From Ramlibacter pinisoli (GTDB lineage Bacteria; Pseudomonadota; Gammaproteobacteria; Burkholderiales; Burkholderiaceae_C): 64,000 nt of DNA. The first letter of the stretch is position 1, and each line of letters opens with the position of its first letter. Below, piece by piece: positions 2,582 through 62,675 of the stretch. The notes beneath the pieces are model-generated. The model was not told the origin of the DNA. It saw only the letters and a list, made by a program, of their open reading frames with translations, and searched no databases. The stretch spans positions 310,001 through 374,000 of the forward strand of contig NZ_WSEL01000009.1 in assembly GCF_009758015.1 (NCBI RefSeq). The letters are read 5' to 3'. A program made the translations under genes and the position numbers.

Positions 2582-2978
2582 CGCGGTCTGCTCCTGGCGC
2601 ACGATGCGCGCATCAGGTTCGCCCGGCCCCTGGCCTTGCCCGCGGGATGGGCGAACGGGTTCCGGATCGGCGCGCCCCCGCCGTCCTCGCCCCCGGCGTC
2701 GACCTGGCGCGCCCGGGTTGCGACGACCCGGCGGACGCCACGCGGAAACTGGTCCTGCCTGCACGACAGGGGCGGTCTTCCCGCATTGAAGCAGCTTTGC
2801 GCAGCCGCGTGTCGGGCACCATGGGACGTTGGCCCAATGGCGGCTCAGCGGAAGGTGGGCAGCTTGCCCGCCCGACCTCAGCCGAGACCCGGAATCGACG
2901 GGGCCGGCTCACGCGCGCGGGGCCGGATGCACCACGCCAGAGCGACGCCCGAGCCAGGACAGGGCCCGGGCGTGGGGA
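2582..2978. other. 397-bp region without a convincing gene; 5' region of the ABC/GH94 operon
   Basis: No frame here has protein-like composition: the open frames on both strands are Arg/Pro/Gly-rich, as expected by chance at this GC content. The region separates the ABC-type gene (start 2581) from the end of the FAH gene (2979), both on the minus strand. It holds one recognisable element, the near-palindrome at 2822-2837, and is probably the promoter and leader of the ABC/GH94 operon. Confidence 0.5.
2822..2837. promoter_or_regulatory. DosR-like box 1 (TGGGACGTTGGCCCAA)
   Basis: A 16-bp near-palindrome 241 bp upstream of the ABC-type start. It shares the pattern TGGGAC-n4-GnCCnA with the copies at 14185, 62623 and 62660. 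The pattern resembles the GGGAC/GTCCC arms of the mycobacterial DosR (NarL/FixJ family) operator. Its role is inferred from recurrence in promoter regions only. Confidence 0.45.
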
Positions 2979-3821
2979 TCAGCCGGCGACCACCCGCTGC
3001 CTCTGCTGGCCCAGTCCCTCGATGCCGAGGGTCACCACATCGCCCGGCTTCAGGTAGGTCGGCGGTTTCATCCCCAGGCCGACACCAGGCGGCGTGCCAG
3101 TGGAAATGATGTCGCCCGGACGCAGGCTCATGAACTGAGACAGATACGACACCAGGCTGGCCACGCCGAACACCATGGTCGCCGTGGAGCCCTTCTGGCG
3201 CGACACGCCGTTGACCTGCAGCCACATGGGCAGGTGCTGGGGGTCCGGGATCTCGTCGCGCGTGACCAGCCAGGGACCGATGGGGCCGAAGGTGTCGGCA
3301 GACTTCCCCTTGGTCCACTGGCCCTGCCGCTCGATCTGGAACTCGCGCTCCGACAGGTCGTTGATCACGCAGTAGCCCGCGACGTGCTCCATCGCATCCT
3401 GCTCGCTGACGTACTTCGCCGTCTTGCCGATCACCACGCCCAGCTCGACTTCCCAGTCGGTCTTGACCGAACCGCGGGGGATCTCGATGTCGTCGTCCGG
3501 CCCGACGATCGCGGAGGTCGCCTTCATGAAGATGATCGGCTCGGGCGGCACCGTCGCGCCGGTCTCCTCCGCGTGGTCGGAGTAGTTCAGGCCAATGCAG
3601 ATGAACTTCCCGGTGCCGGCGACGCAGGGACCGAGGCGCGGGGAACCCTGCACCAGCGGCAGGGTCGCGGGATCGATCGCCGCCAGGCGCGCCAGCCCCT
3701 GGGGCAGCAGCACCTCGCCCGCGATGTCGCCCACGAGGGCCGTGAGGTCCCGCAACTGGCCCCTGGCATCCAGCAGGCCGGGCTTTTCCTGGCCCGCCGG
3801 GCCGAAACGCAGCAACTTCAT
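2979..3821 (-). CDS. Fumarylacetoacetate hydrolase family protein (2,4-diketo-3-deoxy-fuconate hydrolase / ureidoglycolate lyase-like)
   Basis: 280 residues; the start at 3821 has AAGGAAG upstream. The family fold is evident from IGLNYSDHAEETG, AIVGPDDDIEIPRGS, DWEVELGVVIG (two metal-binding Glu), NDLSERE (metal-binding Asp) and STGTPPGVGLG. Members of this family cleave or hydrate beta-diketo acids in the cytoplasm using a divalent metal. The gene follows an SDR dehydrogenase by 21 bp as the last gene of a TRAP/CoA-transferase operon. The SDR plus FAH pair matches the last two steps of non-phosphorylative L-fucose/L-rhamnose breakdown (diketo-deoxy acid to pyruvate plus lactate), but the other operon genes do not fit that route, so the substrate stays open. 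Confidence 0.88.
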   Translation of the reverse strand: MKLLRFGPAGQEKPGLLDARGQLRDLTALVGDIAGEVLLPQGLARLAAIDPATLPLVQGSPRLGPCVAGTGKFICIGLNYSDHAEETGATVPPEPIIFMKATSAIVGPDDDIEIPRGSVKTDWEVELGVVIGKTAKYVSEQDAMEHVAGYCVINDLSEREFQIERQGQWTKGKSADTFGPIGPWLVTRDEIPDPQHLPMWLQVNGVSRQKGSTATMVFGVASLVSYLSQFMSLRPGDIISTGTPPGVGLGMKPPTYLKPGDVVTLGIEGLGQQRQRVVAG

Positions 3822-3842
3822 GATTCGATGCTTCCTTGACGA

Positions 3843-4571
3843 TCAGATGGCCCAGCCGCCGTCGATGACGTGGACCTGGCCCGTGGTGTAGGTGGCAGCC
3901 GCGAGGTACACGGCGAGGTCGGCGATTTCCTCCGGCGCGCCGATGCGTCCCATGGGCTGGCGCGCGACGAAGTCGGCGCGCGCCTTCTCGAAGTCACCGG
4001 TCGCCTTCAAGCGCTCCTGGAGCGAGGGCGACTCCACGGTGCCCGGGCAGATCGCGTTGCAGCGGATGCCCTGCGCCACGAAGTCGGCGGCGACCGACTT
4101 GGTCAGGCCGATCACGGCGGCCTTGGTCACGCCGTAGGCGAAACGGTTGGCCACGCCCTTGACGCTGCTGGCCACCGAGGCCATGTTGATGATGGCGCCG
4201 TCGCGGCGCTCCAGCATGCCGGGCAGCACCGCCCGGATGGTGCGGACCATGGCCTTGACGTTGAGGTCGTAGGCGAAGTCGAGGTCCTTGTCGCTGGCCT
4301 GCAGCACGCTGCCGCCGTGCACGACGCCGGCGCAGTTGAACAGCACGTCCACGCGGCCGATGGCCCCGGCGAGGTCGCGCACGGCCGCTTCGTCCAGCAC
4401 GTCGAGCTTGCGCACGGTGACGCCGGGCAACTCGCGCAGGCCGGCCATGCCGGCTTCGTTGATGTCGGTGGCCCAGACGCGGGCGCCGGCGCGGGCGAAC
4501 GCTTCGACGCTGGCGCGGCCGATGCCTTGCGCGGCGGCGGTGATGAGGACAGTCTTGCCGGTGAGGTTCAT
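3843..4571 (-). CDS. Short-chain dehydrogenase/reductase (DHRS6/BDH2-like)
   Basis: 242 residues. I chose the ATG at 4571 because MNLTGKTVLITAAAQGIGR is the true Rossmann N-terminus and GGAGA lies eight bases upstream; the longer frame to 4802 is antisense noise. The cofactor motif is TAAAQGIG, NAG-type NCAGVVH is present, and the catalytic centre is a Ser in NMASVASS followed by YGVTK. The AAAQGIG form is typical of the DHRS6 subgroup, which includes 3-hydroxybutyrate and 2-keto-3-deoxy-L-fuconate dehydrogenases using NAD. The gene overlaps the upstream CoA transferase by ATGA. It presumably oxidises a hydroxyacid whose product is handled by the neighbouring FAH enzyme. Confidence 0.9.
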   Translation of the reverse strand: MNLTGKTVLITAAAQGIGRASVEAFARAGARVWATDINEAGMAGLRELPGVTVRKLDVLDEAAVRDLAGAIGRVDVLFNCAGVVHGGSVLQASDKDLDFAYDLNVKAMVRTIRAVLPGMLERRDGAIINMASVASSVKGVANRFAYGVTKAAVIGLTKSVAADFVAQGIRCNAICPGTVESPSLQERLKATGDFEKARADFVARQPMGRIGAPEEIADLAVYLAAATYTTGQVHVIDGGWAI

Positions 4572-5731
4572 GCGGCGGTTTCTCCAAGGGGATCGAGTTC
4601 GAATTCGGCGCGCAGCGCCGCGCTGTGCTCGCCGATGCGCGGCGCACCGCGCGCACCCAGTGCACGCTGGCCGTCGATGCGCAGCGGACCGCGCGTGGTG
4701 TGCACGGGGGTCCCATCGCCGCGCTGCACGGTCTGGAGCATGTCCAGGCGGCGGAAAGCTTCGCTGTCCAGCAGGCGCGGCCAGTCCAGCACCTCGGCGC
4801 ACCAGACGTCGGCCGGCCGCAGGCGCCCGAGCCAGTGCTCCGTCTTGTGGCGGACCAGCTCGGCCGCGACCAGGCGCTTGATCTCGTCGCGCTTGCCGAA
4901 GGCGTCCTCGGCCGAGTAGCGGCGCAGGTCCGGCAGCGGCAGCGTCTCGGCCAGTTGCTCCAGCGGCATCATCGCCAGCGCCAGATAGCCATCCTGCGTG
5001 GGATAGATGCCGTAGGGCGCCGCGAGGTAGGCGTTGGCGTTGCGGAAGCCGGCCCGGCGCGGCAGGCGGCCGCCGTCGTTCAGGTGCGTGGTGAGCAGCT
5101 CGAACTGCAGGTCGATCAGCGCCTCGAGCAGGCTCGTCTGCACCAGCGCGCCCTTGCCCGTGAGTCCCCGGCGCACCAGGGCGGCCAGGATGCCTTCGGT
5201 GAGGATGTGGCCCGCCAGCATGTCGGCCACCGACAGGCCGAGCGGAACCGGGCCGTCGCCGTCATGGCCGTTGAGCCAGGTGACACCCGACACCGATTGC
5301 GCCAGCAGGTCCTGGCCCGGCAGGCCGACCCAGGGCCCGCTCTCGCCGTAGCCGGACACGCTGGCGTAGACCAGGCGCGGGTTGAGTGCTTGCACGTCGT
5401 CCCAGCCGAGCCCCAGTCGCTCGATGACACCCGGCCGGAAGTTCTGGATCAGGACATCCGCGCGCTGCAGCAGGCGGCGCAGCACGGCCAGGTCGTCCGG
5501 GTTCTTCAGGTCGAGCGCCAGGCTTTCCTTGCTGCGGTTGATGGCGTGGAACAGCGTCGAATCGCCGCCCAGGTCGGTGTCGGTGAGGTAGAGCGTGCGG
5601 CAGATGTCGCCGGTGCCGGCGCGCTCCACCTTGATCACGCGGGCCCCCAGGTCCGCGAGCCGCAGGGCCGCCGACGGGCCCGACAGGAACTGGCTGAGGT
5701 CGACGACCAGCAGCCCTTGCAGCAGGCTCAT
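4568..5731 (-). CDS. CaiB/BaiF family CoA transferase (family III), copy 1
   Basis: 387 residues from MSLLQGLLVVDLSQFLSGP. Family III features include the N-terminal VVDLSQFLSGPSAALRLADLGARVIKVE segment, NRSKESLALDLKNP, QNFRPGVIERLGLG and SVSGYGESGPW. The CoA-binding and catalytic Asp lies in the SVADMLAGH region. These enzymes move CoA between organic acids in the cytosol. Copy 1 is clearly paralogous to the product of 9892-11091 in the divergent operon (SQFL(S/A)GPS, NRSKES versus NRNKRS, ADMLAGH versus VDMMTGAH). Its start overlaps the stop of the solute-binding-like gene and its stop overlaps the SDR start, so translation is tightly coupled. Confidence 0.93.
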   Translation of the reverse strand: MSLLQGLLVVDLSQFLSGPSAALRLADLGARVIKVERAGTGDICRTLYLTDTDLGGDSTLFHAINRSKESLALDLKNPDDLAVLRRLLQRADVLIQNFRPGVIERLGLGWDDVQALNPRLVYASVSGYGESGPWVGLPGQDLLAQSVSGVTWLNGHDGDGPVPLGLSVADMLAGHILTEGILAALVRRGLTGKGALVQTSLLEALIDLQFELLTTHLNDGGRLPRRAGFRNANAYLAAPYGIYPTQDGYLALAMMPLEQLAETLPLPDLRRYSAEDAFGKRDEIKRLVAAELVRHKTEHWLGRLRPADVWCAEVLDWPRLLDSEAFRRLDMLQTVQRGDGTPVHTTRGPLRIDGQRALGARGAPRIGEHSAALRAEFELDPLGETAA

Positions 5732-6858
5732 CGCGGCAGGGTCTCCCGGAACATGCGGTTCAGGTCGGCCACGATGGCGCCCGCGGGCTCCGTCCCGCGC
5801 AGTCCCGCCATCAGGCGCTCCGAGGCTGCGTCCTGGTAGGGCATGTAGCCATCGTGGCGCGGGCGGACCCAGGCGCCTTCCAGCGTGCGTCGCGTGGCGC
5901 GGTAGAAGTCGTGCGTCGCGGCGTTGGCGCCGTCGTCCTCCCATGCCCTGGCGTGCCCGGCCTGGCCGCCGGACGCCACGTACGGACCCGACTGCGCCTG
6001 CGGGCCCGCGACCCACAGCGCGAAGTCGAGCGCCTCCTGGGTGTGGGCGCCGCGGGCCGACACGGCGATGCCGGTGCCGCCGAGGGCGGAACCCGACGGT
6101 CCCCTGCCGCGCAGCGACGGGATGTCGGAGAAGCCGATGCGCCCCGGCCGGAACCCCGCGACGGCGTAGTTCACATACCCGTAGATGAGGGGCACGCAGC
6201 GGATGGGGGAATCGTCCAGCGCCATGCGCTCGAACACCGCAATGGGGTCCTGCGTGAAGTCGGCGTCGGCCAGGTGCGGCAACAGCGCGCGCAGCAACTC
6301 GATCGCCACCGAAGCGGTCTCGGGTTCGAACAGCTCGGGCCCTTCCACGCGGCCTGGCGCCCCGAGCTGTGCCGTGAGCGTGTACAGGCACATCAGGGCG
6401 TGCGGCGAGCGCAGCGGCAGCGCCACGTAGCCGGCCCGTGCGAGTTCCAGCACCTGCTCCCAGTTGGCCGCAGGTGCCGTCAGCCGGTCCGGACGCCAGG
6501 CCTGGACCTGGGTCGCGGCGTCGATCGCCAGCGCCCACTGCTTGCCCTGCCAGAAGTAGCTGGGATGCGAGGCGCCGACGCTGCCTGCAGCGATGTCCGC
6601 CAGGCGGTCCTGCGGCAGCGGCAGCAGGCAGTTCTCGCGCGCGACCTGGCCCACGTGCGGGTGGTCGATCACGATCAGGTCGTACTCGCGGGCCAGCTGG
6701 TCGACCGGGAAGGTCTCGAACTCCTGGAGCGAGCGCCGGTCCCACGTGATCGCCACGCCGGTGCGTTCCTGCCAGAGCGCCGAGCAGGCTTCCAGCGGCT
6801 GCCAGCCGCGCGGATGGTTCCAGGTCATGCCCCGCAGGGCCACTGTGTTCTTCGTCAT
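5728..6858 (-). CDS. Solute-binding-protein-fold protein without signal peptide (SBP_bac type)
   Basis: 376 residues from the ATG at 6858, with GGAGG six bases upstream. The sequence resembles family 1 sugar-type ABC binding proteins: a Trp-rich start (MTWNHPRGWQPLEACSALW), YDLIVIDHPHVG, YFWQGKQWALAIDAATQVQ, NWEQVLELARAG, and a C-terminus with YMPYQDAASERLM. However, the N-terminus (MTKNTVALRGMTW) has no hydrophobic signal segment, no Tat motif and no lipobox, so export is unlikely. No ABC permease genes are nearby. It sits between the TRAP large permease and CoA transferase 1, overlapping the latter by ATGA. It may be a cytosolic sensor or chaperone of the substrate; an unseen signal from a misassigned start is unlikely because dctM ends within 1 base of the ATG. 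Confidence 0.8.
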   Translation of the reverse strand: MTKNTVALRGMTWNHPRGWQPLEACSALWQERTGVAITWDRRSLQEFETFPVDQLAREYDLIVIDHPHVGQVARENCLLPLPQDRLADIAAGSVGASHPSYFWQGKQWALAIDAATQVQAWRPDRLTAPAANWEQVLELARAGYVALPLRSPHALMCLYTLTAQLGAPGRVEGPELFEPETASVAIELLRALLPHLADADFTQDPIAVFERMALDDSPIRCVPLIYGYVNYAVAGFRPGRIGFSDIPSLRGRGPSGSALGGTGIAVSARGAHTQEALDFALWVAGPQAQSGPYVASGGQAGHARAWEDDGANAATHDFYRATRRTLEGAWVRPRHDGYMPYQDAASERLMAGLRGTEPAGAIVADLNRMFRETLPR

Positions 6859-8162
6859 TGCACTCCTCCGGTGCCGTACAGCAGGTTGGGCAGCCACAGC
6901 GACAGCTGCGGGAACACCGACAACAGCACCAGCAGGCCCATCATCACGGCCAGGTAGGGCGCGATCTCGCGGGAGTAGTCGCCCATCTTCACCTTGAGCG
7001 TCTGCGAGGAGATGTACATGAGGCCGCCCACCGGCGGCGTGATGCCGGCGATGGTGAGGTTGGTGATCAGCACGATGCCGAAGTGCACCTTGTCGATGTG
7101 CGCGCCCTCGATCAGGGGCAGCAGCATGGGCGTCAGGATGATCAGCGCCGCCGATCCCTCGATGGCGGTTCCCAGCGCGATCAGCACCAGGTTGATCAGC
7201 AGCAGCAGCATGACCGGGTTGGTCGTGGTGCCCGCCAGCCAGCCCGACATCGCCTGCGGCACCTGTTGCCAGGACAGGTAGAAGCCGAAGGCGGCGGCCG
7301 CGCAGATCATCATCATCACGCTGGCGGAATCGCGCACGGACTCGGCCAGCACTTCCGGCAGGTCGCGCAGCCTGATCTCGCGATAGCCGAACAGCGCCAC
7401 CAGCACGACGTAGATCACGACGACGGCGCCGGACTCGGTGGTGGTGAAGATGCCGTAGCGGGTGCCGCCCAGGATCACCACGGGGATGGACAGGGCCCAC
7501 AGGCCGTCGATCACGGCCTGGGTGATCTCGCTCGCCGTGGCGCGGCTGGCGCGCTGCGGCTGGTACTTGCGCCGGGTCGCCAGGAAGTGGGTGGTGAGCA
7601 TCAGCCCGGCAGCCAGCAGCAGGCCCGGCACCACGCCGGCGGCGAACAGCCGGCCGATCGAGGCCTCGGCCAGGAAGCCGTAGACGATCAGGCCGATCGA
7701 GGGCGGGATCAGTGCCGTGATGATGGCAGCGGACGACGTGATCACGGCGGCAAAGGGCGCGCCGTAGCCGCGCTGCACCATCTGGGAGCCGATGGTCTTG
7801 GACAGCATCGCCGCGTCGGCGTTGGCCGAGGCCGTGAGGCCGCCCAGCAGCGTCGCCAGCACCGTGCACATCTGCGCCAGTGCGCCGGTCATGTGGCCGA
7901 CCAGCACCTCGGCGAGATGGAGCAGGCGCCGGGTGATGCCCGACGCATTCATCACGCAGCCTGCCAGCACGAACAGCGGCAGCGCCAGCAGCGACACCGA
8001 TTCGGTGCCCTCGGCCATCTGCTGGGCGAAGTTGGCCAGCGGCATCTCGCCCATGTTCATCAGGAAGAACGACAGCGCGGCGATCGCCATCGACCAGGTC
8101 ACGGGCGTCTGCAGGGCCAGCAGCGCCAGCATCAGCACGGAGGGAAGCCAGAGTTGCAGCAT
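6855..8162 (-). CDS. TRAP transporter large permease (DctM family)
   Basis: 435 residues from MLQLWLPSVLMLALLALQTP, almost entirely hydrophobic with about 11-12 membrane segments. DctM signatures include FVLAGCVMNASGITRRLL, LGGLTASANADAAMLSKTIG, IPPSIGLIVYG, and a C-terminal TPPVGGLMYISS. It is the sodium-driven transport channel of a tripartite carboxylate uptake system in the inner membrane. The start at 8162 is two bases after the dctQ stop, and the gene ends overlapping the solute-binding-like gene. A longer frame reaching 8471 would overlap dctQ and is rejected. Confidence 0.94.
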   Translation of the reverse strand: MLQLWLPSVLMLALLALQTPVTWSMAIAALSFFLMNMGEMPLANFAQQMAEGTESVSLLALPLFVLAGCVMNASGITRRLLHLAEVLVGHMTGALAQMCTVLATLLGGLTASANADAAMLSKTIGSQMVQRGYGAPFAAVITSSAAIITALIPPSIGLIVYGFLAEASIGRLFAAGVVPGLLLAAGLMLTTHFLATRRKYQPQRASRATASEITQAVIDGLWALSIPVVILGGTRYGIFTTTESGAVVVIYVVLVALFGYREIRLRDLPEVLAESVRDSASVMMMICAAAAFGFYLSWQQVPQAMSGWLAGTTTNPVMLLLLINLVLIALGTAIEGSAALIILTPMLLPLIEGAHIDKVHFGIVLITNLTIAGITPPVGGLMYISSQTLKVKMGDYSREIAPYLAVMMGLLVLLSVFPQLSLWLPNLLYGTGGVQ

Positions 8163-8164
8163 GC

Positions 8165-8728: not shown

Positions 8729-8735
8729 CTCGCGA

Positions 8736-9725: not shown

Positions 9726-9891
9726 GCTGTCTCCTGAAGGATGAAAGGTGGAAAGGCTGTTCTTGCGCGAACGGAAGATTTATAGGTGAATGCTAGGTGC
9801 ACAGAAGAATCAGCCGCCTAGGGGTTTCCACTGAACCTCAAGACCCATCAGACTGGTGTTCGCGTCTCTCTGATGAATCTATCATTCACCC
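9726..9891. promoter_or_regulatory. Divergent promoter region between the TRAP operon and the CoA transferase/MaoC/IclR operon
   Basis: This 166-bp spacer is noticeably richer in A/T than its surroundings. It holds GGTGAATG at 9785-9792 and its exact reverse complement CATTCACC at 9883-9890, just before the CoA transferase ATG. These are candidate half-sites for the IclR-type regulator encoded at 11552-12343. A TATCAT hexamer at 9880-9885 could serve as a -10 element for the plus-strand operon. No expression data are implied. Confidence 0.5.
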
Positions 9892-14105: not shown

Positions 14106-14329
14106 GCGGTGCGCACCGCCCGGCTGGCCCGGACCCGTGCGCTGAGCTTGTCCCACCCGGCGTCGGCGGCGTGCCGCGCACCGGTTGGACCAAGGTCCCA
14201 TGCGCTCGCGCTGCGCGCGGGCGCATCATGGCGTCCAGCGCCGAGGAGCGGCCGCATCCGCCGGGGATGGTGATCGTCGGGGCCCGCGGCTGCGCCGCGA
14301 GGGTGCTTCCACCTGTCTGGAGGTGAAGC
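14106..14329 (+). other. Upstream region of the GH65/LDH operon
   Basis: No credible coding frame. Together with the sorB hairpin and the small frame at 14330 it fills the 362-bp gap between sorB and the HAD gene. It contains the near-palindrome at 14185-14200. It is probably the promoter and leader for the operon that follows. Confidence 0.5.
14185..14200. promoter_or_regulatory. DosR-like box 2 (TTGGACCAAGGTCCCA)
   Basis: Read on the other strand this is TGGGACCTTGGTCCAA, which differs from box 1 at only two positions. It is 145 bp upstream of the possible leader peptide start and 240 bp upstream of the HAD gene, almost the same distance as box 1 from its gene. It is the second of four copies in the window. 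Confidence 0.5.
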
Positions 14330-14428
14330 GTGGACCAGACGCTTTCCGTTGGCACCGTCCCCTTCGACCACGAACACCACCTGCCTGTCGGCCTGCCGGG
14401 TCGACGGCTCGAAGGAGCGACGTGGTGA
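14330..14428 (+). CDS. Possible 32-residue leader peptide upstream of the HAD gene
   Basis: A GTG-initiated frame preceded by a consensus Shine-Dalgarno (GGAGG at 14319-14323, six bases away) and ending in a TGA that overlaps the HAD GTG start (GTGA). The peptide runs VDQTLSVGTVPFDHEHHLPV and ends in RRLEGATW. It is His-rich in the middle (DHEHH). The 15-base string TGGAGGTGAAGCGTG around its start recurs exactly at the ldh start (17558-17572). The strong ribosome site and coupling support translation; no homologue is known to me. A chance frame is possible because of its short length. Confidence 0.45.
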   Translation: MDQTLSVGTVPFDHEHHLPVGLPGRRLEGATW

Positions 14429-15171
14429 CCGCCGGCCCGGTCACGCCGGACCGCTTCGACGCCGTCCTCTTCGACATGGACGGCGTTCTCACGTCGACCG
14501 CCCGGATCCATGCGCGCTGCTGGAAGACGGTGTTCGACGAGTTCCTCTCGTTGCGGGCAGGCGATGCGGAGTCGTTCCGGCCGTTCGACATCGACACCGA
14601 CTACAAGTGGTACGTGGACGGCAAGGCGCGCTACGACGGCGTGAGGAGCTTCCTCGCGTCCCGCGACATCACCCTTGCGGAAGGTGCACCTTCGGACCCG
14701 CCGGCTGCCGACACGGTCTGCGGCCTGGGCAACCGCAAGGACGCGCTGGTCGAGGCGGCGATCGACCGTGGCGAGGTCGAGTCGTACCCCGGATCGGTGA
14801 CCTTCGTGCGGCAACTGCGCGACCGGGGCATCCGCACGGCCGTGGTCTCGTCGAGCAACCACTGCGAGCAGATCCTGCTCGCGGCGGGCATCCTCGACCT
14901 GTTCGATGCCAGGGTCGACGGAGTGGTCGCAACCCAGCTCGGGCTTCCCGGCAAGCCTGCGCCGGACGCCTTCCTCAAGGCCGCCGAGCTGGTGAACGCC
15001 AGCCCGGCCCGCGCGGTGGTCATCGAAGACGCCATTGCCGGTGTCCAGGCCGGCCGGGCCGGGCAGTTCGGCCTGGTGATCGGCGTGGCCAGGGACGCAG
15101 GTGCAGACACCCTGCGGGCGAACGGCGCCGACATCGTCGTGGCCGACCTGGCGGAGTTGCTCGATGCTTAA
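14425..15171 (+). CDS. HAD-superfamily hydrolase, beta-phosphoglucomutase family
   Basis: 248 residues from the GTG at 14425, with AAGGAG seven bases upstream (GTG 14422 is too close). HAD motif I is FDMDGVLTS (Asp17, Asp19), motif II is VVSSSNHCEQIL, the motif III Lys is in GLPGKPAPDAFLKA, and motif IV is VIEDAIAGVQAGRAG. An alpha-helical cap with YKWYVDGKARYDGVRSFL (the usual substrate-loop pattern) and CGLGNRKD lies between. The family converts beta-glucose 1-phosphate to glucose 6-phosphate. It directly precedes and overlaps a GH65 phosphorylase, which would supply that substrate. Confidence 0.9.
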   Translation: MTAGPVTPDRFDAVLFDMDGVLTSTARIHARCWKTVFDEFLSLRAGDAESFRPFDIDTDYKWYVDGKARYDGVRSFLASRDITLAEGAPSDPPAADTVCGLGNRKDALVEAAIDRGEVESYPGSVTFVRQLRDRGIRTAVVSSSNHCEQILLAAGILDLFDARVDGVVATQLGLPGKPAPDAFLKAAELVNASPARAVVIEDAIAGVQAGRAGQFGLVIGVARDAGADTLRANGADIVVADLAELLDA

Positions 15172-17491
15172 GCACGAGCCGGTCCTGCCGCCGGAGATCA
15201 TCTACCCGATCGAGGAGTGGCGCTGGGTCGAAAAGTCGTTCGCGCCGGGCTTCCTGCCCCAGGCCGAGACGGTCTTCACCGTCTCCAATGGCTACCTAGG
15301 CATCCGGGGAGCGTTCGAGGAAGGCGGGCCGGCCTTTCGCCACGGCACGTTCGTCAACGGGTTCCACGAGACCTGGCCCATCCCCTACGGCGAGTGGGCG
15401 TTCGGCTTCGCCACGACCGGCCAGACGATCGCGAACCTGCCGGACGCCAAGATCATCCGCCTGTACGTCGACGATGAGCCCTTCGACCTGGCGAACGCCC
15501 GCCTCCTGAGCTTCGAGCGTGCACTCGACATGCGGGCCGGCACGCTCGAGCGGCGGGTGCTCTGGGAAACGCCTGCCGGCCGGCAGGTCCTGGTCGAGTC
15601 GCAGCGCCTGGTCTCGTTCCAGGAGAAGCATGTCGCCGCGATCTCCTACCGGGTGACGGTCCTCAACGCCAAGGCCGCGCTCGTCCTGTCGTCCGAGGTC
15701 GTCGAGCACCTGCCGACCGGCCAGGACGTGAAGGACGACCCCCGGCTGGCGCACGCGACCATGGATCGCGTGCTCTCCCTGCAGGCGGCCGAAGGCAAGG
15801 ATCGCCGCGTGATCCTGGGCTACCGGACGACCCGCAGCGGCATGACCATGGCCTGCGGCATCGACCATGTCCTGGAGACCGACTGCACCTGGACGATGAA
15901 GGCCGACTGGGGCGGGCATGGCGCGCGCCTGGTGTTCTCCGTGGACGCGGAGCCGGGCAAGCCGATCGCGCTCACCAAGTACATCACCCACCACACCTCC
16001 CGGGACGACAAGACCGCCGAGCTCTGCCTGCGCGCAGGACGAACGCTGGATCGTGTGGTGGCCGAGGGGTTCGGGCGGCTCCTGGACGACCAGCGCGCCT
16101 ACCTGGACGACTTCTGGCACCGCAGCGACATCCAGATCAGCTCGCGGCACCCGCGCATGCAGCAATGCCTGCGCTGGAACCTGTTCCAGCTGATCCAGGC
16201 CTGCGGCCGCGCCGATCGCGCCGGCATTGCAGCCAAGGGGCTGACCAGCCAGACGTACGACGGCCACTACTTCTGGGACATGGAAATCTACGTCCTGCCG
16301 TTCCTGATCTACACGTCGCCCAGCCTGGCGCGCAATGTCCTGCGGTTCCGCTACAGCATCCTGGACAAGGCGCGCGAACGCGCCCGCGCGGTGGGCCAGA
16401 AAGGCGCGCTGTTTCCCTGGCGCACCATTAGCGGTGACGAAGCGTCGGCCTACTACGCCGCCGGCACCGCGCAGTACCACATCAACGCCGCCGTCGCCCA
16501 TGGCATCGTCAAGTACGTCGATGTCACGGGCGACCGGAACTTCCTGCTCGAATGCGGCGCCGAAATGCTGGTCGAGACCGCGCGGCTCTGGTTCGACCTG
16601 GGCTTCTTCTCGCCGCGGCGCGACGGGCGTTTCTGCATCCACCGGGTGACGGGGCCGGACGAATACACCACGGTGGTCAACAACAACACCTACACCAACC
16701 TGATGGCGCGCGACAACCTGCGGTTCGCCGCCGACGCGGTGGACGACATGCGGCAGCACAGTCCCGACCACTACCGGGCACTGGTGCTGCGGACCGGGCT
16801 CGATCCAGCCGAAGCGGACGACTGGCGGCGGGCGGCCGAGCGCATGTACGTCCCCTTCGACGAGCGTTCGCAGATCCATCCGCAGGACGACGACTTCCTC
16901 GACCTGAAGAAGTGGGACTTCGAGGGCACGCCGCGCGACCAGTACCCGCTGCTGCTGCACTTTCACCCACTGGTCATTTACCGGCACCAGGTCATCAAGC
17001 AGGCCGACGTGGTGCTGGCGATGTTCCTGCTGGGCAATGAATTCACCCTGGAACAGAAGCGGCGCAACTTCGACTACTACGACGAGCTGACCACTGGCGA
17101 CTCATCCCTCTCGGCCTGCATCCAGAGCATCCTGGCGTTCGAAGTCGGTCACGACGAGCACGCCATCAGCTATCTCATCAGTGCCCTGCTCATGGACCTG
17201 GCCGATGTCGGCGCCAGGGACGGCTGCCACATCGCCTCGATGGGCGGAACGTGGATGGGCGTCGTCTACGGCGTGGCCGGCCTGCGCGACAACGGCGGGC
17301 GTCTCACGTTCCAGCCGCACCGGCAGGTGCAGGCCCTGCGCTTCCGCCTGAGCGTGCGCGGCCAGCAACTCGCCGTCGAGATGGAGAGCGGCAGCGTCAC
17401 GTACCGGCTGGAGCAGGGTGACGGCCTGACCATCTGGCACCGGGACGAGCGGCTGGAGTTGCAGCCGGGACGACCGGTGCAACGTTCCTAG
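15164..17491 (+). CDS. Glycoside hydrolase family 65 disaccharide phosphorylase (trehalose/maltose/kojibiose type)
   Basis: 775 residues from MLKHEPVLPPEIIYPIEEWR; the ATG at 15164 overlaps the HAD gene by eight bases. The N-terminal sandwich domain contains ETVFTVSNGYLGIRGAFEEG. The (alpha/alpha)6 catalytic domain has SQTYDGHYFWDMEIYVLPF, the general acid Glu500 in TGPDEYTTVVNNNTYTN, and KQADVVLAMFLLGNEFT near the phosphate site. The small C-terminal beta domain ends with VTYRLEQGDGLTIWH. GH65 phosphorylases split alpha-glucosidic disaccharides with phosphate to glucose plus beta-glucose 1-phosphate. The exact disaccharide cannot be read from the sequence. The tandem beta-PGM gene strongly supports phosphorolysis rather than hydrolysis. 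Confidence 0.93.
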   Translation: MLKHEPVLPPEIIYPIEEWRWVEKSFAPGFLPQAETVFTVSNGYLGIRGAFEEGGPAFRHGTFVNGFHETWPIPYGEWAFGFATTGQTIANLPDAKIIRLYVDDEPFDLANARLLSFERALDMRAGTLERRVLWETPAGRQVLVESQRLVSFQEKHVAAISYRVTVLNAKAALVLSSEVVEHLPTGQDVKDDPRLAHATMDRVLSLQAAEGKDRRVILGYRTTRSGMTMACGIDHVLETDCTWTMKADWGGHGARLVFSVDAEPGKPIALTKYITHHTSRDDKTAELCLRAGRTLDRVVAEGFGRLLDDQRAYLDDFWHRSDIQISSRHPRMQQCLRWNLFQLIQACGRADRAGIAAKGLTSQTYDGHYFWDMEIYVLPFLIYTSPSLARNVLRFRYSILDKARERARAVGQKGALFPWRTISGDEASAYYAAGTAQYHINAAVAHGIVKYVDVTGDRNFLLECGAEMLVETARLWFDLGFFSPRRDGRFCIHRVTGPDEYTTVVNNNTYTNLMARDNLRFAADAVDDMRQHSPDHYRALVLRTGLDPAEADDWRRAAERMYVPFDERSQIHPQDDDFLDLKKWDFEGTPRDQYPLLLHFHPLVIYRHQVIKQADVVLAMFLLGNEFTLEQKRRNFDYYDELTTGDSSLSACIQSILAFEVGHDEHAISYLISALLMDLADVGARDGCHIASMGGTWMGVVYGVAGLRDNGGRLTFQPHRQVQALRFRLSVRGQQLAVEMESGSVTYRLEQGDGLTIWHRDERLELQPGRPVQRS

Positions 17492-17572: not shown

Positions 17573-18547
17573 ATGCAGGACACCAAGATCGCGATCATCG
17601 GCGCCGGCCGGGTCGGCAGCACCTTTGCGTACACCCTGGCGACCTCGGGCCTGGCCCGGGAGATCGTGCTGATCGACGCCGACAGCGCGCGCGCGGAGGG
17701 CGAGGCCATGGACATCGCGCACGCGGTTCCCTTCCACCGCCCGGTCGTCGTGCGGCCCGGGGCGATCGACGACGCGCAGGGGGCGCTGGTGACCGTGCTC
17801 ACGGCCGGCGCAGCGCAGCGGCCGGGCGAAGCGCGGACGGCGCTCTTCCAGCGCAACGTCGAGATGCTGCGGGATGTCCTCCAGGGCGTCATGGACGTGA
17901 ACCCGGAAGGCCTCTTCCTGATGACCACCAACCCCGTGGATGCCCTGACCTATGTCGCGTTGCGGCTGACGGGCCTGCCGCCTGGCAGGGTCTTCGGCTC
18001 GGGCACGGTGCTGGACTCGGCCCGCCTGCGGGCGGAACTCGCTGGGCACTGCGCGGTGGACGCCAGGAACGTCCACGCCTACGTGCTCGGGGAGCATGGG
18101 GACAGCGAGTTCGTCGCCTGGTCCACGGCGAGCCTGGGCAACGTGCCGATCCCCGACTACTGCAGCCTGGCCGGCATGGTCTTTTCACGGACCGAGATGG
18201 ACGCCATCGAGCAGCGCGTGCGCCGGGCGGCCTACGAGATCATCCAGCGCAAGGGGGCGACCAACTTCGCCATCGCCACCTCGCTGACCCGGATCGTCGA
18301 GGCGATCGTGCGAGACGACGCATCGGTCCTCACCGTCTCCACCCTGCTGCACGGCGAGTACGGCATCTCGGATGTCTGCCTGAGCCTGCCGGCCATCGTG
18401 GGCCGGCACGGCGTCACCAGGACGCTGCCGGTCTCGCTGGCGCCGGAGGAGCTGTCGGCGATGCAACGCTCGGCCGAGGCGATCAGGGGCGTCATCGCCG
18501 ACGTCGCGGACCTGCCGCCGGCCATTCCCCCGTCATTGCCGGCCTGA
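17573..18547 (+). CDS. ldh: L-lactate dehydrogenase (NAD-dependent LDH/MDH family)
   Basis: 324 residues from the ATG at 17573; the GTG at 17570 is an alternative start, and both follow a consensus GGAGG at 17559. Features are AIIGAGRVGSTFAYTL, LIDADSARAEGEAMDI, TAGAAQRPGEARTALFQRN (the active-site loop with Arg), TTNPVDALTYV, the catalytic His175 in LGEHGDSEFVAWS, and a C-terminal helix. The GEHGDSE pattern and GAAQRPGE loop favour lactate over malate. It sits 81 bp after the GH65 gene on the same strand, so the group could take a disaccharide to pyruvate and regenerate NAD by forming lactate. The last codons (PPSLPA) lie inside an intergenic repeat unit, so the natural C-terminus may have been altered. 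Confidence 0.9.
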   Translation: MQDTKIAIIGAGRVGSTFAYTLATSGLAREIVLIDADSARAEGEAMDIAHAVPFHRPVVVRPGAIDDAQGALVTVLTAGAAQRPGEARTALFQRNVEMLRDVLQGVMDVNPEGLFLMTTNPVDALTYVALRLTGLPPGRVFGSGTVLDSARLRAELAGHCAVDARNVHAYVLGEHGDSEFVAWSTASLGNVPIPDYCSLAGMVFSRTEMDAIEQRVRRAAYEIIQRKGATNFAIATSLTRIVEAIVRDDASVLTVSTLLHGEYGISDVCLSLPAIVGRHGVTRTLPVSLAPEELSAMQRSAEAIRGVIADVADLPPAIPPSLPA

Positions 18548-21352: not shown

Positions 21353-21354
21353 GG

Positions 21355-54707: not shown

Positions 54708-54780
54708 CTTGGCATGATCGGCCGATGGGCGGCGCCGGAAGTCCCGGCACTCCGCACCTGAACGGTGGAGACAGGCAGGC

Positions 54781-57889: not shown

Positions 57890-59616
57890 AGCGCGATCTC
57901 GATCCGCGAGCCGCTTCGCCCGCCGTGCGCGAAGTCGACCTGGTCGTCTGCGGCGCCGGCGCGGCCGGCATGGCCACCGCCCTGTTCGCGGCCCTGGAGG
58001 GCCTGGACGTGCTGCTGCTCGAGCAGTCGCGCTGGGTCGGCGGCACCAGCGCCCTGGCGGCCGGCGCCCTGTGGATCCCCAACACGCACCTGGCCGCCGG
58101 CTCGGGCGACACGCCAGCCCGTGCCGCCCACTACCTCGAGCTCGCCACCGGCGGCCGCTCGCCGGCCGCCCTGCGCGAGCGCTTCCTGGCCCTGGGGCCG
58201 CAGGCGGTGCGCTGCCTGGAAGACCACACCGAGGTGCGTCTGCGTGCCTTCCCGCACCACCCCGACTACCTGGCCGAGCTGCCCGACGCCACCACCTGGG
58301 GCCGCGTCCTGGAGTGCCTGCCGTTCGACGGCCGCCAGCTGGGACCGGCGCTGGCCCTGGTGCGCCCGCCCATCCCCGAGTTCACCATCCTGGGCGGGAT
58401 GATGGTCGACCGCATCGACATCGGCCACCTGCTCAACGCCACGCGCTCGCGCGCCTCGTTCCTGCATGCGGCCCGCCTGCTGCTGCGGCATGCCGGCGAC
58501 CGGCTGCGCCATCCGCGCGGTGCCCGGCTGGTGATGGGCAATGCGCTGGTCGGCCGGCTGCTGCAGTCGCTGCGCCAGCGCCAGGTGCCGATCTGGACCG
58601 GCACGCCGGTGCAACAGCTGGTGCAGACCGCAGGCCGCGTCACCGGCGTGGTGGCCCTGCGCGACGGCCAGCCGCTGGAAGTGAAGGCGCGGCTGGGCGT
58701 GGTGCTGGCCGGCGGCGGCTTCAACGACCACCCCGGCCTGCGCAGCCAGTTCATCCCGGCCGACGTGACGCACTCGCCCCGCGCCGGTTGCGCCATCGGC
58801 ACGCTGCTGCAGGAAGCGATCGGGCTCGGTGCCCGGTTCGTGCGGCCGGCCGGCAGCGCCGCGTTCTGGGCCCCGGTGTCGGTGCACCGGCGCGGCGACG
58901 GCAGCACCGCCGTGTTCCCCCATTTCGTCCTCGACCGGGCCAAGCCCGGCACGGTGGTCGTCAACGCGGCCGGCGAGCGCTTCCTCAACGAGAGCCTTTC
59001 GTATCACCAGTTCGGCGAGCGCATGCTGGCCGAGGGGCCGGGCGGCCGGCCCAACGCCGTCGCCTGGCTCATCGCCGACCAGCGCGCACTCACCCGCTAC
59101 GGGCTGGGCATGGTGCGCCCGGGCGGGCGCAGCCTGGCGCACTACCTGCGCGAGGGCTACCTGGTGCGTGCGCCGTCGATCGCGGCCCTGGCCGGCCAGC
59201 TGGGCATCGACGCGGCCGCCCTGCAACGGACCATCGAGCGCATGAACGGCCACGCCCGCACCGGCGTGGACACCGAGTTCCAGCGCGGCAGCTCCGCCTA
59301 CCAGCGCAACCTGGGCGATCCGGCGGTGCAGCCCAATCCCACCCTGGCGCCCATCGCCCAGGCGCCCTATTACGCCGTGCGGCTGCAGCCCGCCGACATC
59401 GCGGCCATCGCCGGCCTCGCCACCGACCCCGAGGCGCGCGTGCTGCGCGGCGACGCACCCATCGCCGGCCTGTACGCCGTGGGCAACGACATGCAGTCGG
59501 TGATGGGCGACGCCTATCCCGGCCCCGGCATCAACCTCGGCCCCGCCCTCGTCTTCGCCTATGCCGCCGTGCAGGCCGCGAAGGCATCCATTCCCTTGCA
59601 GGCAGGTACCCCATGA
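57886..59616 (+). CDS. FAD-binding oxidoreductase of the fumarate reductase/3-ketosteroid dehydrogenase superfamily
   Basis: 576 residues. EVDLVVCGAGAAGMATALFAALEGLDVLLLEQSRWVGGTSALAAGALWIPNT is the FAD site of the KstD-like branch. GVVLAGGGFNDHPGLRSQFIP, PGTVVVNAAGERFLNESLSYHQF and the C-terminal GLYAVGNDMQSVMGDAYPGPGINLGPALVFAY complete it. These enzymes introduce or reduce C=C bonds next to a carbonyl; steroid Delta1-dehydrogenase is the best-known member. The substrate here is unknown. The gene overlaps both neighbours. Confidence 0.9.
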   Translation: MKRDLDPRAASPAVREVDLVVCGAGAAGMATALFAALEGLDVLLLEQSRWVGGTSALAAGALWIPNTHLAAGSGDTPARAAHYLELATGGRSPAALRERFLALGPQAVRCLEDHTEVRLRAFPHHPDYLAELPDATTWGRVLECLPFDGRQLGPALALVRPPIPEFTILGGMMVDRIDIGHLLNATRSRASFLHAARLLLRHAGDRLRHPRGARLVMGNALVGRLLQSLRQRQVPIWTGTPVQQLVQTAGRVTGVVALRDGQPLEVKARLGVVLAGGGFNDHPGLRSQFIPADVTHSPRAGCAIGTLLQEAIGLGARFVRPAGSAAFWAPVSVHRRGDGSTAVFPHFVLDRAKPGTVVVNAAGERFLNESLSYHQFGERMLAEGPGGRPNAVAWLIADQRALTRYGLGMVRPGGRSLAHYLREGYLVRAPSIAALAGQLGIDAAALQRTIERMNGHARTGVDTEFQRGSSAYQRNLGDPAVQPNPTLAPIAQAPYYAVRLQPADIAAIAGLATDPEARVLRGDAPIAGLYAVGNDMQSVMGDAYPGPGINLGPALVFAYAAVQAAKASIPLQAGTP

Positions 59617-60647
59617 AAGCCGTCGCGAAACTCCGCCCCGAACCCGGGGCCATGGCCCTCATCGACGTCGACCCGCCGCAGCGCCGGCCGGGCGAAGTGC
59701 TGGTGCGCATCACGGCCGGCGGCATCTGCGGCACCGACGTCGCAATCTGGAAGTGGCACGAGGCCGTGGTCGGCCAGTACGCGCCCCGCTTCCCGCTGAT
59801 CGTCGGCCACGAGTTCGCCGGCACCGTGGTGGAGTCCGACGGCGACCGCGTGCCCCCCGGCACCGTGGTGGCGGTGAACCCGCAGATCGCCTGTGGCCAC
59901 TGCCGTTACTGCGGCCTGGGCCGCCCCACCCTGTGCGACGACCGCCGCCTGATGGGCGGCCGCATCGACGGCGGCTGGACCGAGCTGGTCAGCGTGCCGC
60001 AATGGAACGTGCACCCGCTGCCCGCGGGCACCGATGCCGCGGTCGCGCCCCTGCTGGAGCCGCTGTCGGTGGCCACGCACGCGGTGCTGGAGCGCGTGCC
60101 GGTGCGCGCCGGCGACGTGGTGGCCGTCATCGGCGCCGGCCCCATCGGCATCCTGTGCGCCGTGCTGGCCCTGGCGGCCGGCGCCCGGCAGGTGCTGGTG
60201 ACCGGCGTCGCGGCCGACGCCGGCCGGCTGCGGCTGGCGCGCGAGCTGGGGGCGGTGCCGGTCGACATCGACGCGGCCGACCCGCTGGCGGCGCTGCGCG
60301 CGCTGCAGGCCGACGGCGCCGACATCGTGTACGAGACCAGCGGCGTGGCCAGCACGCTGGAGCAGGCGGTGGCGATGTGCCGCCGCGGCGGCAGCGTGGG
60401 ACTGATCGGCCTGTGCCACGGCGCCAGCACCCTGCGCAGCACGCCCATCGTGCTCAAGGAGCTCGCCCTGATCGGCTCGCGCGGCTACAACGAGACCACC
60501 TGGCGGCTGATGATGACCGTGCTGCCGCGGGTCGCGGCCGACGTGCTCAAGCTGGTGACGCACCAGGTGGAGTTCCGCGATTTCGAGCGCGCGCTGCAGA
60601 TGGTCGAGCGTCGCGAGGGCAGCAAGATCGTGCTGCGCCCGTCCTGA
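59613..60647 (+). CDS. Zinc-dependent medium-chain alcohol dehydrogenase (threonine/sorbitol dehydrogenase-like)
   Basis: 344 residues. The catalytic zinc site comprises Cys39 in GGICGTDVAIWKW, the GHEFAGTVVE His-Glu pair and LLEPLSVATHAVLE. The structural zinc lobe CGHCRYCGLGRPTLC has all four Cys. The NAD motif is VAVIGAGPIGILCAVLALAAGA. It oxidises a secondary alcohol of a polyol or hydroxyacid. It follows the FAD oxidoreductase with an ATGA overlap and is 44 bp from the DctP gene. Confidence 0.93.
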   Translation: MKAVAKLRPEPGAMALIDVDPPQRRPGEVLVRITAGGICGTDVAIWKWHEAVVGQYAPRFPLIVGHEFAGTVVESDGDRVPPGTVVAVNPQIACGHCRYCGLGRPTLCDDRRLMGGRIDGGWTELVSVPQWNVHPLPAGTDAAVAPLLEPLSVATHAVLERVPVRAGDVVAVIGAGPIGILCAVLALAAGARQVLVTGVAADAGRLRLARELGAVPVDIDAADPLAALRALQADGADIVYETSGVASTLEQAVAMCRRGGSVGLIGLCHGASTLRSTPIVLKELALIGSRGYNETTWRLMMTVLPRVAADVLKLVTHQVEFRDFERALQMVERREGSKIVLRPS

Positions 60648-60691
60648 TTCCCGCTTCCTTTCCTTCCAACCCATTCCAAGGAGACACCCGC

Positions 60692-61699
60692 ATGAACACC
60701 CGTCACTTCCTCGCCGCCACCCTGGCCGCGGCGGCGCTCGCCCTGGCCGGCCCCGTGCAGGCCCAGGAGCACACCATCCGCTTCGGCCACGTGGTGCAGC
60801 CGGGCCATCCGATCTCGCTGGGCGCGCAGAAGCTCGCCGAGCTGCTGGCGGCCCGCAGCGGCGGCAAGATGAAGCTGCAGGAACTCGGCGGGGGATCGAT
60901 CGGCGGCGAGGCCCAGCAGCTGAGCGCCGTGCAGGGCGGCGTACAGGACATGACGCTGCCCTCGGCCACGGTCATGGGCGGCGTGGTCAAGGAGTTCACC
61001 CTGCTCGACATCCCGTTCTCCTTCGGCAAGGCAGAGCAGGTCGACGCGCTGCTGGCCGGCCCGTTCGGCGAGCTGCTGATGTCGAAGCTGGCGGACAAGG
61101 GCATGGTCGGCCTGGCGTTCTGGGAAACGGGCTTCCGCCAGTTCACCAACAGCCGCAAGCCGCTGGTCAACGTGGAGGACATCAAGGGCCTGAAGCTGCG
61201 CGTGATCCCCAACCCGATGTTCGTCGAGAGCTTCAGCGCGCTGGGCGCCAATCCGGTGCCGATGGCGTTCCCGGAGCTGTACGGCGCGCTCGAATCCAAG
61301 GCCATGGATGCGCAGGAGAACCCGTTCTCGGTCATCCAGACCAGCAAGTTCTTCGAGGTCCAGAAGTTCCTCAGCGTCACCAACCACGTCTACACCGCCA
61401 ACCCGGTGGTGGTCAGCAAGAAGACCTGGGACAAGCTGACGCCGGACCAGCAGAAGATCCTGCGCGAGGCGACCATCGAGGCCGGCGCCTACCAGCGCAA
61501 GGTCAGCCGCGATGCGTCCTCGGTCGCGCGCAAGGAGCTGGAAGGCAAGATGCAGGTCAACGACGTCCCGCCCGCCACCCTGGCGCGCATGCGCGAACTC
61601 ACCACCCCGGTGGCCGAGAAGTTCGCCGCGTCGTACGACCCGGCCGTGGTGAAGGTCTACCGGGCCGAGCTGGAGAAGGTGCGCGCCACGGTGCGCTGA
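60692..61699 (+). CDS. TRAP transporter substrate-binding protein (DctP family), no permease genes nearby
   Basis: 335 residues with a Sec signal (MNTRHFLAATLAAAALALA, cleavage after QAQ or VQA) and AAGGAGA before the ATG. Features: HTIRFGHVVQPGHPISLGAQKLAELLAARSGGKMKL, GLAFWETGFRQFTNSRKPL with the ligand Arg in GLKLRVIPNPMFVE, and PVPMAFPELYGALESKAMDAQENP. It is the last gene of the plus-strand operon and indicates that the substrate of the pathway is a carboxylate. The matching dctQ/dctM genes are not within the window, unless it shares a permease. Confidence 0.92.
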   Translation: MNTRHFLAATLAAAALALAGPVQAQEHTIRFGHVVQPGHPISLGAQKLAELLAARSGGKMKLQELGGGSIGGEAQQLSAVQGGVQDMTLPSATVMGGVVKEFTLLDIPFSFGKAEQVDALLAGPFGELLMSKLADKGMVGLAFWETGFRQFTNSRKPLVNVEDIKGLKLRVIPNPMFVESFSALGANPVPMAFPELYGALESKAMDAQENPFSVIQTSKFFEVQKFLSVTNHVYTANPVVVSKKTWDKLTPDQQKILREATIEAGAYQRKVSRDASSVARKELEGKMQVNDVPPATLARMRELTTPVAEKFAASYDPAVVKVYRAELEKVRATVR

Positions 61700-61714
61700 A
61701 CACCATCGGGGCGC

Positions 61715-62566
61715 TCAGTAGCGCTCCGAGATGCGGTGGTACGGGTAGTCCGGCTCCTGGTAGTGGCCGGCCTTCTGCCGCTTGGGCAGCGCGATCTTCT
61801 CGCGCTTGACCTGCTCGTACGGGATGCGCGAGAGCAGGTCCGAGATGATGTTGAGCCGGCCGCGCCGCTTGTCGTCGGTGCGGGCCACCAGCCAGGGCGA
61901 GATCTCGGTGTCGGTGGCCAGGAACATCTCGTCGCGGGCCCGCGAGTAGTCGTACCAGCGCCCGTACGACTTCAGGTCCATCGGCGAGAGCTTCCAGACC
62001 TTGCGCCCGTCGTCGATGCGGTCCTGCAGCCGCTTTGTCTGTTCCTCCTGGCTCACCTCCAGCCAGTATTTCAGCAGCGTGACGCCCGAGCGCACGATGG
62101 CCTGCTCGACCAGCGGAACGACCTTCAGGAACTCCTGCGACTGCTCTTCGGTGCAGAAGCCCATGACCCGCTCGACGCCGGCGCGGTTGTACCAGCTGCG
62201 GTCGAAGATCACCACCTCGCCCGCGGCCGGCAGGTGCGGCACGTAGCGCTGCATGTACATCTGGCTGCTCTCGCGTTCGCTGGGCGCCGGCAGCGCCACG
62301 ACACGGAACACCCGGGGGCTGACCCGCTCGGTGATGGCCTTGATGGTGCCGCCCTTGCCGGCGCCGTCGCGGCCCTCGAACACCACGCAGACCCTGGCGC
62401 GGTGGCGCTGCACCCATTCCTGCAGCTTCACCAGCTCGATGTGCAGCTTGCGCAGTTCCTCCAGGTAGGCGCGGTTGCCCAGCTTCGTCGGGACGGCCTG
62501 CGCATCGTCGTGGTGGTCGTCCTTGCCAGCCTTGTCCTTGTGCCCGTTCTTGTGTTCCTTGCCCAT
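61715..62566 (-). CDS. ppk2: Polyphosphate kinase 2 (PPK2, class I-type short form)
   Basis: 283 residues from MGKEHKNGHKDKAGKDDHHD (charged tail of about 30 residues), with AGGAGA upstream. The Walker A motif is GRDGAGKG (residues 65-72), Walker B DRSWYNRAGVERVMGF (Asp122), and the lid region LEVSQEEQTKRLQDRIDD with KLSPMDLKSYGRWYDYSRARDEMF. EISPWLVARTDDKRRGRLNIISDLL is typical. PPK2 moves phosphate between polyphosphate and nucleoside diphosphates in the cytosol. Two DosR-like boxes lie within about 110 bp upstream, in the spacer shared with the YqhA-like gene. Confidence 0.94.
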   Translation of the reverse strand: MGKEHKNGHKDKAGKDDHHDDAQAVPTKLGNRAYLEELRKLHIELVKLQEWVQRHRARVCVVFEGRDGAGKGGTIKAITERVSPRVFRVVALPAPSERESSQMYMQRYVPHLPAAGEVVIFDRSWYNRAGVERVMGFCTEEQSQEFLKVVPLVEQAIVRSGVTLLKYWLEVSQEEQTKRLQDRIDDGRKVWKLSPMDLKSYGRWYDYSRARDEMFLATDTEISPWLVARTDDKRRGRLNIISDLLSRIPYEQVKREKIALPKRQKAGHYQEPDYPYHRISERY

Positions 62567-62622
62567 TGCCTGTCTCCTAGACGGGGGAGAACCACTGTGG
62601 AGCGCAACGGCCGACCTGCCAA

Positions 62623-62638
62623 TGGGACTTTGGGTCAA
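62623..62638. promoter_or_regulatory. DosR-like box 3 (TGGGACTTTGGGTCAA)
   Basis: A weaker copy of the 16-bp near-palindrome, 57 bp from the ppk2 start. It keeps the TGGGAC left arm and the terminal CAA but has an altered right arm (GGGTCAA). It is 37 bp (centre to centre) from box 4. Confidence 0.4.
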
Positions 62639-62659
62639 TTCCGTGACCGTCGCGTGACG

Positions 62660-62675
62660 TGGGACGAAGGTCCCA
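62660..62675. promoter_or_regulatory. DosR-like box 4 (TGGGACGAAGGTCCCA)
   Basis: The most symmetric copy: TGGGAC/GTCCCA arms around GAAG. It is 57 bp upstream of the YqhA-like start and 94 bp from ppk2 on the other side, so it could serve both divergent promoters. Confidence 0.55.

Follow-up and report, generated by a model that had tools for sequence, protein, structure and literature searches.

Four palindromes in a Ramlibacter pinisoli contig as predicted operators of a FixJ/StyR-type response regulator

Which regulator would act at four short palindromes in a contig of Ramlibacter pinisoli, and which genes would it control? The palindromes lie at positions 2822–2837, 14185–14200, 62623–62638 and 62660–62675 of a stretch of 64,000 nucleotides (here called the window; C9:310001–374000 of the 5.5 Mb genome G000). 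An earlier note had described them as copies of TGGGAC-n4-GTCCCA, as boxes of the type bound by mycobacterial DosR and as signs of energy saving under respiratory stress. They look like copies of an on-switch sequence found again in the promoters of several soil-dwelling Ramlibacter. With good confidence we regard all four as predicted operators of a FixJ/StyR-type response regulator controlling a genome-wide set of fermentation, storage and envelope genes, a conclusion drawn from sequence comparison.

The pattern as first given does not carry this conclusion. Only 62660–62675 (TGGGACGAAGGTCCCA, plus strand) matches TGGGAC-n4-GTCCCA exactly; the sites at 14185 (TTGGACCAAGGTCCCA), 2822 (TGGGACGTTGGCCCAA) and 62623 (TGGGACTTTGGGTCAA) deviate at one, two and three positions, respectively. 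With up to three mismatches allowed, the window contains 24 matches compared to a shuffle mean of 40, and since the matches are fewer than in the shuffled sequences, the pattern in this form proves nothing. The lack of over-representation is what would be expected of chance palindromes in a GC-rich genome, an origin that we nevertheless consider extremely unlikely in view of the genome-wide counts, the promoter position of the sites and their fixed distance to a −10 box. A search of the genome led to a stricter palindrome, TTGGACCWWGGTCCAA / TGGGACCWWGGTCCCA, and the sites aligned toward their genes gave the 18-bp operator consensus ATKGGACCWWGGTCCMAT. Sequences with at most one mismatch to TKGGACCWWGGTCCMA occur 22 times in R. 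pinisoli, in contrast to none for the reversed pattern. At position 2 of the operator G is found in 57 % and T in 39 % of the sites, so that GGGAC is variable.

Eight of 60 Ramlibacter genomes bear the operator with at least three sites each. Together they hold 112 sites with at most one mismatch, 82 of which were examined (R. pinisoli 22 of 22, G029 15 of 20, G023 17 of 21, G046 14 of 18, G011 7 of 8, G021 4 of 5, G007 2 of 15, G034 1 of 3). According to a simple gene caller, 81 of these 82 sites are non-coding, compared to 12 % non-coding sequence in the part of the R. pinisoli genome examined, and at 80 of them a start codon lies within 400 bp. By the same gene calls all four window sites are non-coding. 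In R. pinisoli the sites cluster at C9:206–248 kb, the densest group, which surrounds the regulator gene described below, and at C3:761–787 kb.

An operator matrix was built from 80 Ramlibacter sites outside the window, with the window sites excluded. Within the 64 kb the four palindromes obtained the four highest scores (27.6 for 14185, 23.0 for 62660, 16.6 for 2822 and 8.8 for 62623), all of them non-coding, and the fifth-ranked score of 4.4 is located in coding sequence. The four places reported before are thus the best four in the window, even though a single one is an exact copy and the pattern itself stays within chance. Because a matrix with rearranged columns already reaches 7.1, 62623 is marginal by sequence alone.

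Beyond the operator one further signal was detected in gene-ward alignment, an A and a T at offsets 40 and 44, counted from the start of the site. This pair was found in 54 of 114 gene-ward directions; the next best offset reached 13 of 114, and the mean over all 73 offsets tried, 40/44 included, was 3.7. Away from genes the pair was seen in 4 of 50 directions, and at 51 of the 82 sites it points to at least one gene. In the window it occurs exclusively toward the operons named in the note, on the minus strand at 2822 and 62623 and on the plus strand at 14185 and 62660. The spacing-discovery set included 14185 and 62660, but not 2822 or 62623; with a background of 0.019 per direction, the chance for each of the latter two is 0.019. 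If A40/T44 are two bases of a −10 hexamer, as we assume, transcription is predicted to start around offset 51, with the operator centred at about −43. On the basis of the −10/−35 anatomy of promoters, the operator can be read as replacing the −35 element. A site overlapping −35 at a fixed distance from the predicted −10 box is the arrangement of class-II-type activators. For the regulon as such, a chance origin is refuted; for 62623 alone it is still possible.

The regulator acting in R. pinisoli is most likely a FixJ-type protein encoded at C9:209176–209802 (locus L034); its gene and the gene for a PAS histidine kinase overlap. Pfam assigns Response_reg and GerE domains to the regulator and HisKA and HATPase_c to the neighbouring kinase, the composition of a two-component system. 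The regulator gene is followed by an operator with two mismatches and then by a gene for a CheY-like receiver. As in NarL/FixJ regulons, target promoters and the regulator locus both carry the palindromic operator. The same order of regulator, operator and CheY-like gene exists in G007, G023 and G029 (2 mismatches) and in G011 and G021 (3 mismatches). At the G034 locus no CheY-like gene was seen, and in G046, where a regulator of the same type adjoins a MASE1 kinase, no site of up to two mismatches lies between regulator and CheY-like gene.

Seven of the eight operator-bearing genomes (G046, G034, G007, G029, G011, G021 and G023) encode a regulator that has 57 % identity or more to the copy in G046. 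Among the other 52 Ramlibacter genomes the G046 query gave six best matches at 44–49 % and for the remainder none at 1e-45. With the query genome omitted and kinship between genomes ignored, the association of regulator and operator has p = 1.6e-7. The genus-wide profile is based on the G046 copy because the R. pinisoli protein as query yielded just three matches in relatives at 1e-50 (45–48 %), and two of these came from genomes that lack the regulon. When R. pinisoli was searched with the G029 protein, the best FixJ-type match was again the C9:209176 gene product (50 %). The recognition stretch EKTVKVHR is common to all eight aligned regulators, and in the tree eight FixJ-type proteins of operator-poor Ramlibacter genomes form one clade (99/97). 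The link to a NarL/FixJ-family regulator, as suggested in the earlier note, is supported by these findings.

Several observations weigh against the proposed regulon or against its assignment to the C9:209176 gene. The R. pinisoli regulator, the eighth of the set, shares only 44 % identity with that of G046 and groups in the tree with proteins of other genera, apart from the Ramlibacter copies. Its kinase has a PAS domain but gives no MASE1 match, whereas the kinases scanned in two relatives do. A regulator swap in the R. pinisoli lineage is possible, as is a placement in the tree through long-branch error. At 31 of the 82 sites A40/T44 points toward no gene; non-coding status and starts outside Pfam hits are approximate, and the Ramlibacter genome counts, like the p value, ignore kinship. 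In 34 of the best 80 regulator loci from the wider scan reported below, no site of up to two mismatches was found. Finally, what the computation shows is that the operator recurs, stands in promoters, keeps its distance to the −10 box and goes with the regulator; binding, activation, phosphorylation and the signal, be it low respiratory energy or low oxygen, are inferred.

Could the operator belong to another regulator, with the FixJ/StyR-type protein being a mere neighbour? In five motif genomes (L138, L139, L141, L142, L091) the main regulator has another FixJ-type response regulator encoded nearby (RR2; helix ERTIKxDR or ERTVKADR), and such proximity within one cluster would suit RR2 as owner of the operator. 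Its best matches in R. pinisoli and G023 reach just 40 % and 44 %, and its helix differs from that of the main regulator. The other candidates are three short proteins of about 141 amino acids with a FixJ-type helix-turn-helix (HTH), one of which adjoins a site; these were rejected, as no match at 1e-20 was found among 146 relatives. The loci of the wider scan, moreover, were picked by the helix of the main regulator, and the operator is nearby in 46 of the best 80. Taken together, we judge ownership by RR2 or a short HTH protein to be unlikely.

Two side observations concern these proteins. Neighbours of RR2 are kinase-, Ysc84- and patatin-like by appearance in several loci. The short HTH proteins (L034:6884–7309, C9:1534426–1534836 and C2:55503–55919) are 67–69 % alike, and the one in L034 has the HTH without a Pfam receiver match.

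With the FixJ/StyR-type protein as regulator, we favour the following mechanism. The phosphorylated regulator would bind the 18-bp palindrome centred near −43 and, acting as a class-II-type activator in place of a −35 element, would recruit RNA polymerase to promoters in which a −10 box is retained. A fermentation set comprising DUF3141-pta-ackA, pyruvate formate-lyase and alcohol and lactate dehydrogenases would be switched on, along with storage or phosphorolysis of polyphosphate and sugars through ppk2, GH65, GH94 and trehalose-type GT20/GH15 enzymes, and so would envelope and lipid functions. Probably, a single two-component regulator turns on these three groups jointly.

Genes at the sites or in the gene runs behind them were taken as targets in R. 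pinisoli, where for some clusters the nearest site has two mismatches. The fermentation genes comprise DUF3141-pta (with ackA by appearance), an alcohol dehydrogenase, two enzymes of the lactate dehydrogenase (LDH) family and a pyruvate formate-lyase, which is preceded by a DUF190 gene and has a radical-SAM activase-like gene after it; formate-lyase, alcohol dehydrogenase, PTA and LDH assignments are by Pfam. HAD/GH65, PPK2, trehalose-type GT20 and GH15 genes and the GH94 gene at 2822 represent storage and sugar metabolism. DUF1254, DUF3300, DUF2950, Ysc84, phospholipase D, patatin and Omp85 belong to the envelope or lipid type, and UPF0114, a CoA transferase, sulfatases, FGE and a mechanosensitive channel complete the set. 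Orthologous first genes behind the sites are DUF3141 in five genomes, ppk2 in two, including G023, where it likewise has its own operator site, and the CoA transferase in two. In relatives the targets include a multihaem cytochrome with an MtrB/PioB-type porin, quinol or cytochrome oxidase, an enzyme of the glycogen-debranching type and an aquaporin. In G023 (L080:5111–8129) the cytochrome–porin pair stands behind an operator, which suggests that extracellular electron transfer may be under the same control there.

This gene content is consistent with the energy saving that the earlier note had postulated; low oxygen as the trigger is deduced from the same genes. The same regulator and operator might instead answer to envelope or lipid damage. 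The DUF3300, DUF2950, Ysc84, patatin, phospholipase D, Omp85, sulfatase and DUF1254 genes at or behind the sites point in this direction; beyond the genus, neighbouring genes include sulfatase-like and RND-pump-like ones, judged by appearance. The set contains fermentation and storage genes too, which argues against such a signal. Two RNA-seq studies of root-nodule bacteria showed significant induction of DUF3300 and DUF2950 (PMC4653623), a result compatible with microaerobic induction but no proof of it. We consider envelope or lipid damage as the signal a real possibility, albeit not the probable one.

Does the regulon correspond to a system that is already described? The earlier reading as true DosR (DevR) boxes, with a DosR orthologue and a hypoxia-dormancy regulon like that of mycobacteria, draws on a palindrome with a shared GGAC-n4-GTCC core, a regulator of LuxR type and a gene content compatible with energy limitation. 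According to PMC2275270 the DosR consensus is TTSGGGACTWWAGTCCCSAA. The operator found here differs from it in the centre (CWWG in place of TWWA) and in the flanks, and, as stated above, GGGAC is not invariant. A profile of the linked regulators scores 247 bits with StyR and 192 bits with FixJ (5xso), but 64 bits with DosR/DevR (3c3w). Universal stress proteins (Usp) are not at the sites: the genome of R. pinisoli has eight PF00582 matches, the nearest of which is 72 kb away from a site with at most one mismatch; one tandem Usp pair starts about 1.9 kb from a site with three mismatches. Further differences are the distant regulator and the other phylum. DosR orthology and the DosR box were rejected on the grounds of consensus, DevR match and Usp distance, and we hold this identification to be very improbable.

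The nearest solved relative of the regulators is 1yio, which we take to be StyR. In common with StyR and TodT, two-component regulators for styrene and toluene, are a 16-bp palindrome with an AC-n4-GT core and the contact residues K175 and V176. Of this contact set H179 is replaced by Ala or Gly, and V172 is replaced by Lys. The outer operator bases are GG, not the AA of the StyR-type site ATAAAC-N4-GTTTAT given in PMC5874301, which the present operator does not match; the kinase deviates from the TodS layout described in the same paper. The altered contact residues would fit the altered outer bases, a correspondence that is suggestive only. The targets, as far as seen, are not those of aromatic catabolism.

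With FixLJ the system shares the FixJ-type receiver and LuxR-type HTH. The kinases here have MASE1 and PAS or PAS only, and neither fixK nor nif was seen among the genes scanned. The FixJ site differs from the present operator. A likeness in setting exists to the beta-proteobacterial lxa set of Burkholderia cenocepacia, about 50 genes activated at low oxygen (PMC6127331); there it is discussed with a regulator of CRP/FNR type. An FNR motif of Accumulibacter is unrelated to the operator. No description of the operator was found in a literature search, judged by titles, that was limited to an open-licence collection that misses many papers; papers containing exact core strings deal, by title, with eukaryotic subjects, and one on a Thermus FadR (PMC5597230) contains TTGGACC.

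To place the regulator outside the genus, its helix sequence was used in a scan of named genomes, which gave at least 559 relatives. The best 80 loci (1.40 Mb in total, mostly of other genera, some seemingly near copies of one another) contain 78 operator matches with up to two mismatches, in 46 loci, and 46 matches with up to one mismatch, in 32 loci. The reversed pattern gave none at either level and three mononucleotide shuffles gave 2–7 and 0–1. Ramlibacter accounts for four of the loci (L153–L156) and for 8 of the 78 sites. Of 35 loci tabulated, 16 have a site 11–135 bases past the stop codon of the regulator gene. The same pair of helix and operator occurs next to regulators of rhizobia, Cupriavidus, Variovorax and Verrucomicrobia.

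Outside Ramlibacter the numbers are small. Whole-genome counts with up to one mismatch in 50 of these genomes range from 0 to 8 outside the genus, and listed sites fall inside the regulator locus in several cases (Ensifer G183 and G185, both sites each; Bradyrhizobium G178, both sites, and G175, all three). In a sample of 299 genomes of the family, just two, both Ramlibacter, have more than two sites, and other genera have at most two; one Variovorax genome of the 50 just mentioned carries four. The low counts elsewhere and the sites inside regulator loci give the picture of an old, mainly local pairing and of a large regulon that seems to be an expansion in Ramlibacter. More tentatively, and with more doubt than trust on our side, a two-component system that in several phyla has its operator mainly close by may have grown, in some Ramlibacter lineages, into a genome-wide regulon by the spread of one operator-plus-spacing module to about 20 promoters, after which a distant homologue with the same recognition helix took the place of the regulator in R. 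pinisoli, so that the regulon outlived its regulator. As a separate observation, the site directly after the regulator gene in Bradyrhizobium L159, L194 and L198 is TTGGCCCWWGGGCCAA, which suggests a shifted operator in that lineage.

The analysis yields an exact operator, together with predictions for the regulator and the start sites, of a regulon that is apparently undescribed and would join fermentation, polyphosphate, storage sugars and envelope genes of DUF type (DUF3300, DUF2950, DUF3141, DUF1254). As the same helix–operator pair occurs in rhizobia, Cupriavidus, Variovorax and Verrucomicrobia, a single binding result would be informative for many genomes. The patchy occurrence inside one genus may offer a clean case of a local regulator turning global.

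In the window, the neighbours of the sites are the energy-related genes named earlier, as confirmed by Pfam. The operator at 2822–2837 (minus strand, 2 mismatches to TKGGACCWWGGTCCMA) belongs to a predicted leftward promoter with the −10 hexamer AAAGCT at 2793–2798; its candidate targets on the same strand are an ABC transporter of SbmA/BacA and ABC_membrane_2 type (872–2581, start from the simple gene caller) and a GH94-type phosphorylase with SOGP N-terminal domain (3–875), which extends past the window edge. At 14185–14200 (plus strand) the operator is exact to TKGGACCWWGGTCCMA, and the predicted rightward promoter with CATCAT at 14224–14229 would serve a HAD hydrolase of beta-phosphoglucomutase type (14422–15171), a GH65 phosphorylase (15164–17491) and a member of the lactate/malate dehydrogenase family (17573–18547), all on the plus strand.

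The remaining two sites look like two divergent promoters, since A40/T44 is found on the minus strand only at 62623 and on the plus strand only at 62660. The weak operator at 62623–62638 (minus strand, variant TTGACCCAANGTCCCA, 3 mismatches) would direct transcription leftward to polyphosphate kinase 2 (61715–62566, minus strand) with CACAGT at 62594–62599 as predicted −10 hexamer. The operator at 62660–62675 (plus strand, 1 mismatch to TKGGACCWWGGTCCMA) is predicted to act rightward, with AAGAAT at 62699–62704, on a UPF0114 (YqhA family) membrane protein (62732–63235, plus strand). The variant operator TGGGACNTTGGGTCAA has three copies in the R. pinisoli sequence examined, at 62623–62638 of the window and at C9:1182756 and C9:1185903 (positions 4756–4771 and 7903–7918 of L049). 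The genes downstream of them are ppk2, one of transporter-like type and one for a P-type ATPase; the A...T spacing is present gene-ward at each copy and in both directions at that of the ATPase. Over 40 bases rightward from window position 2822, 31 are identical to those at C9:1185903.

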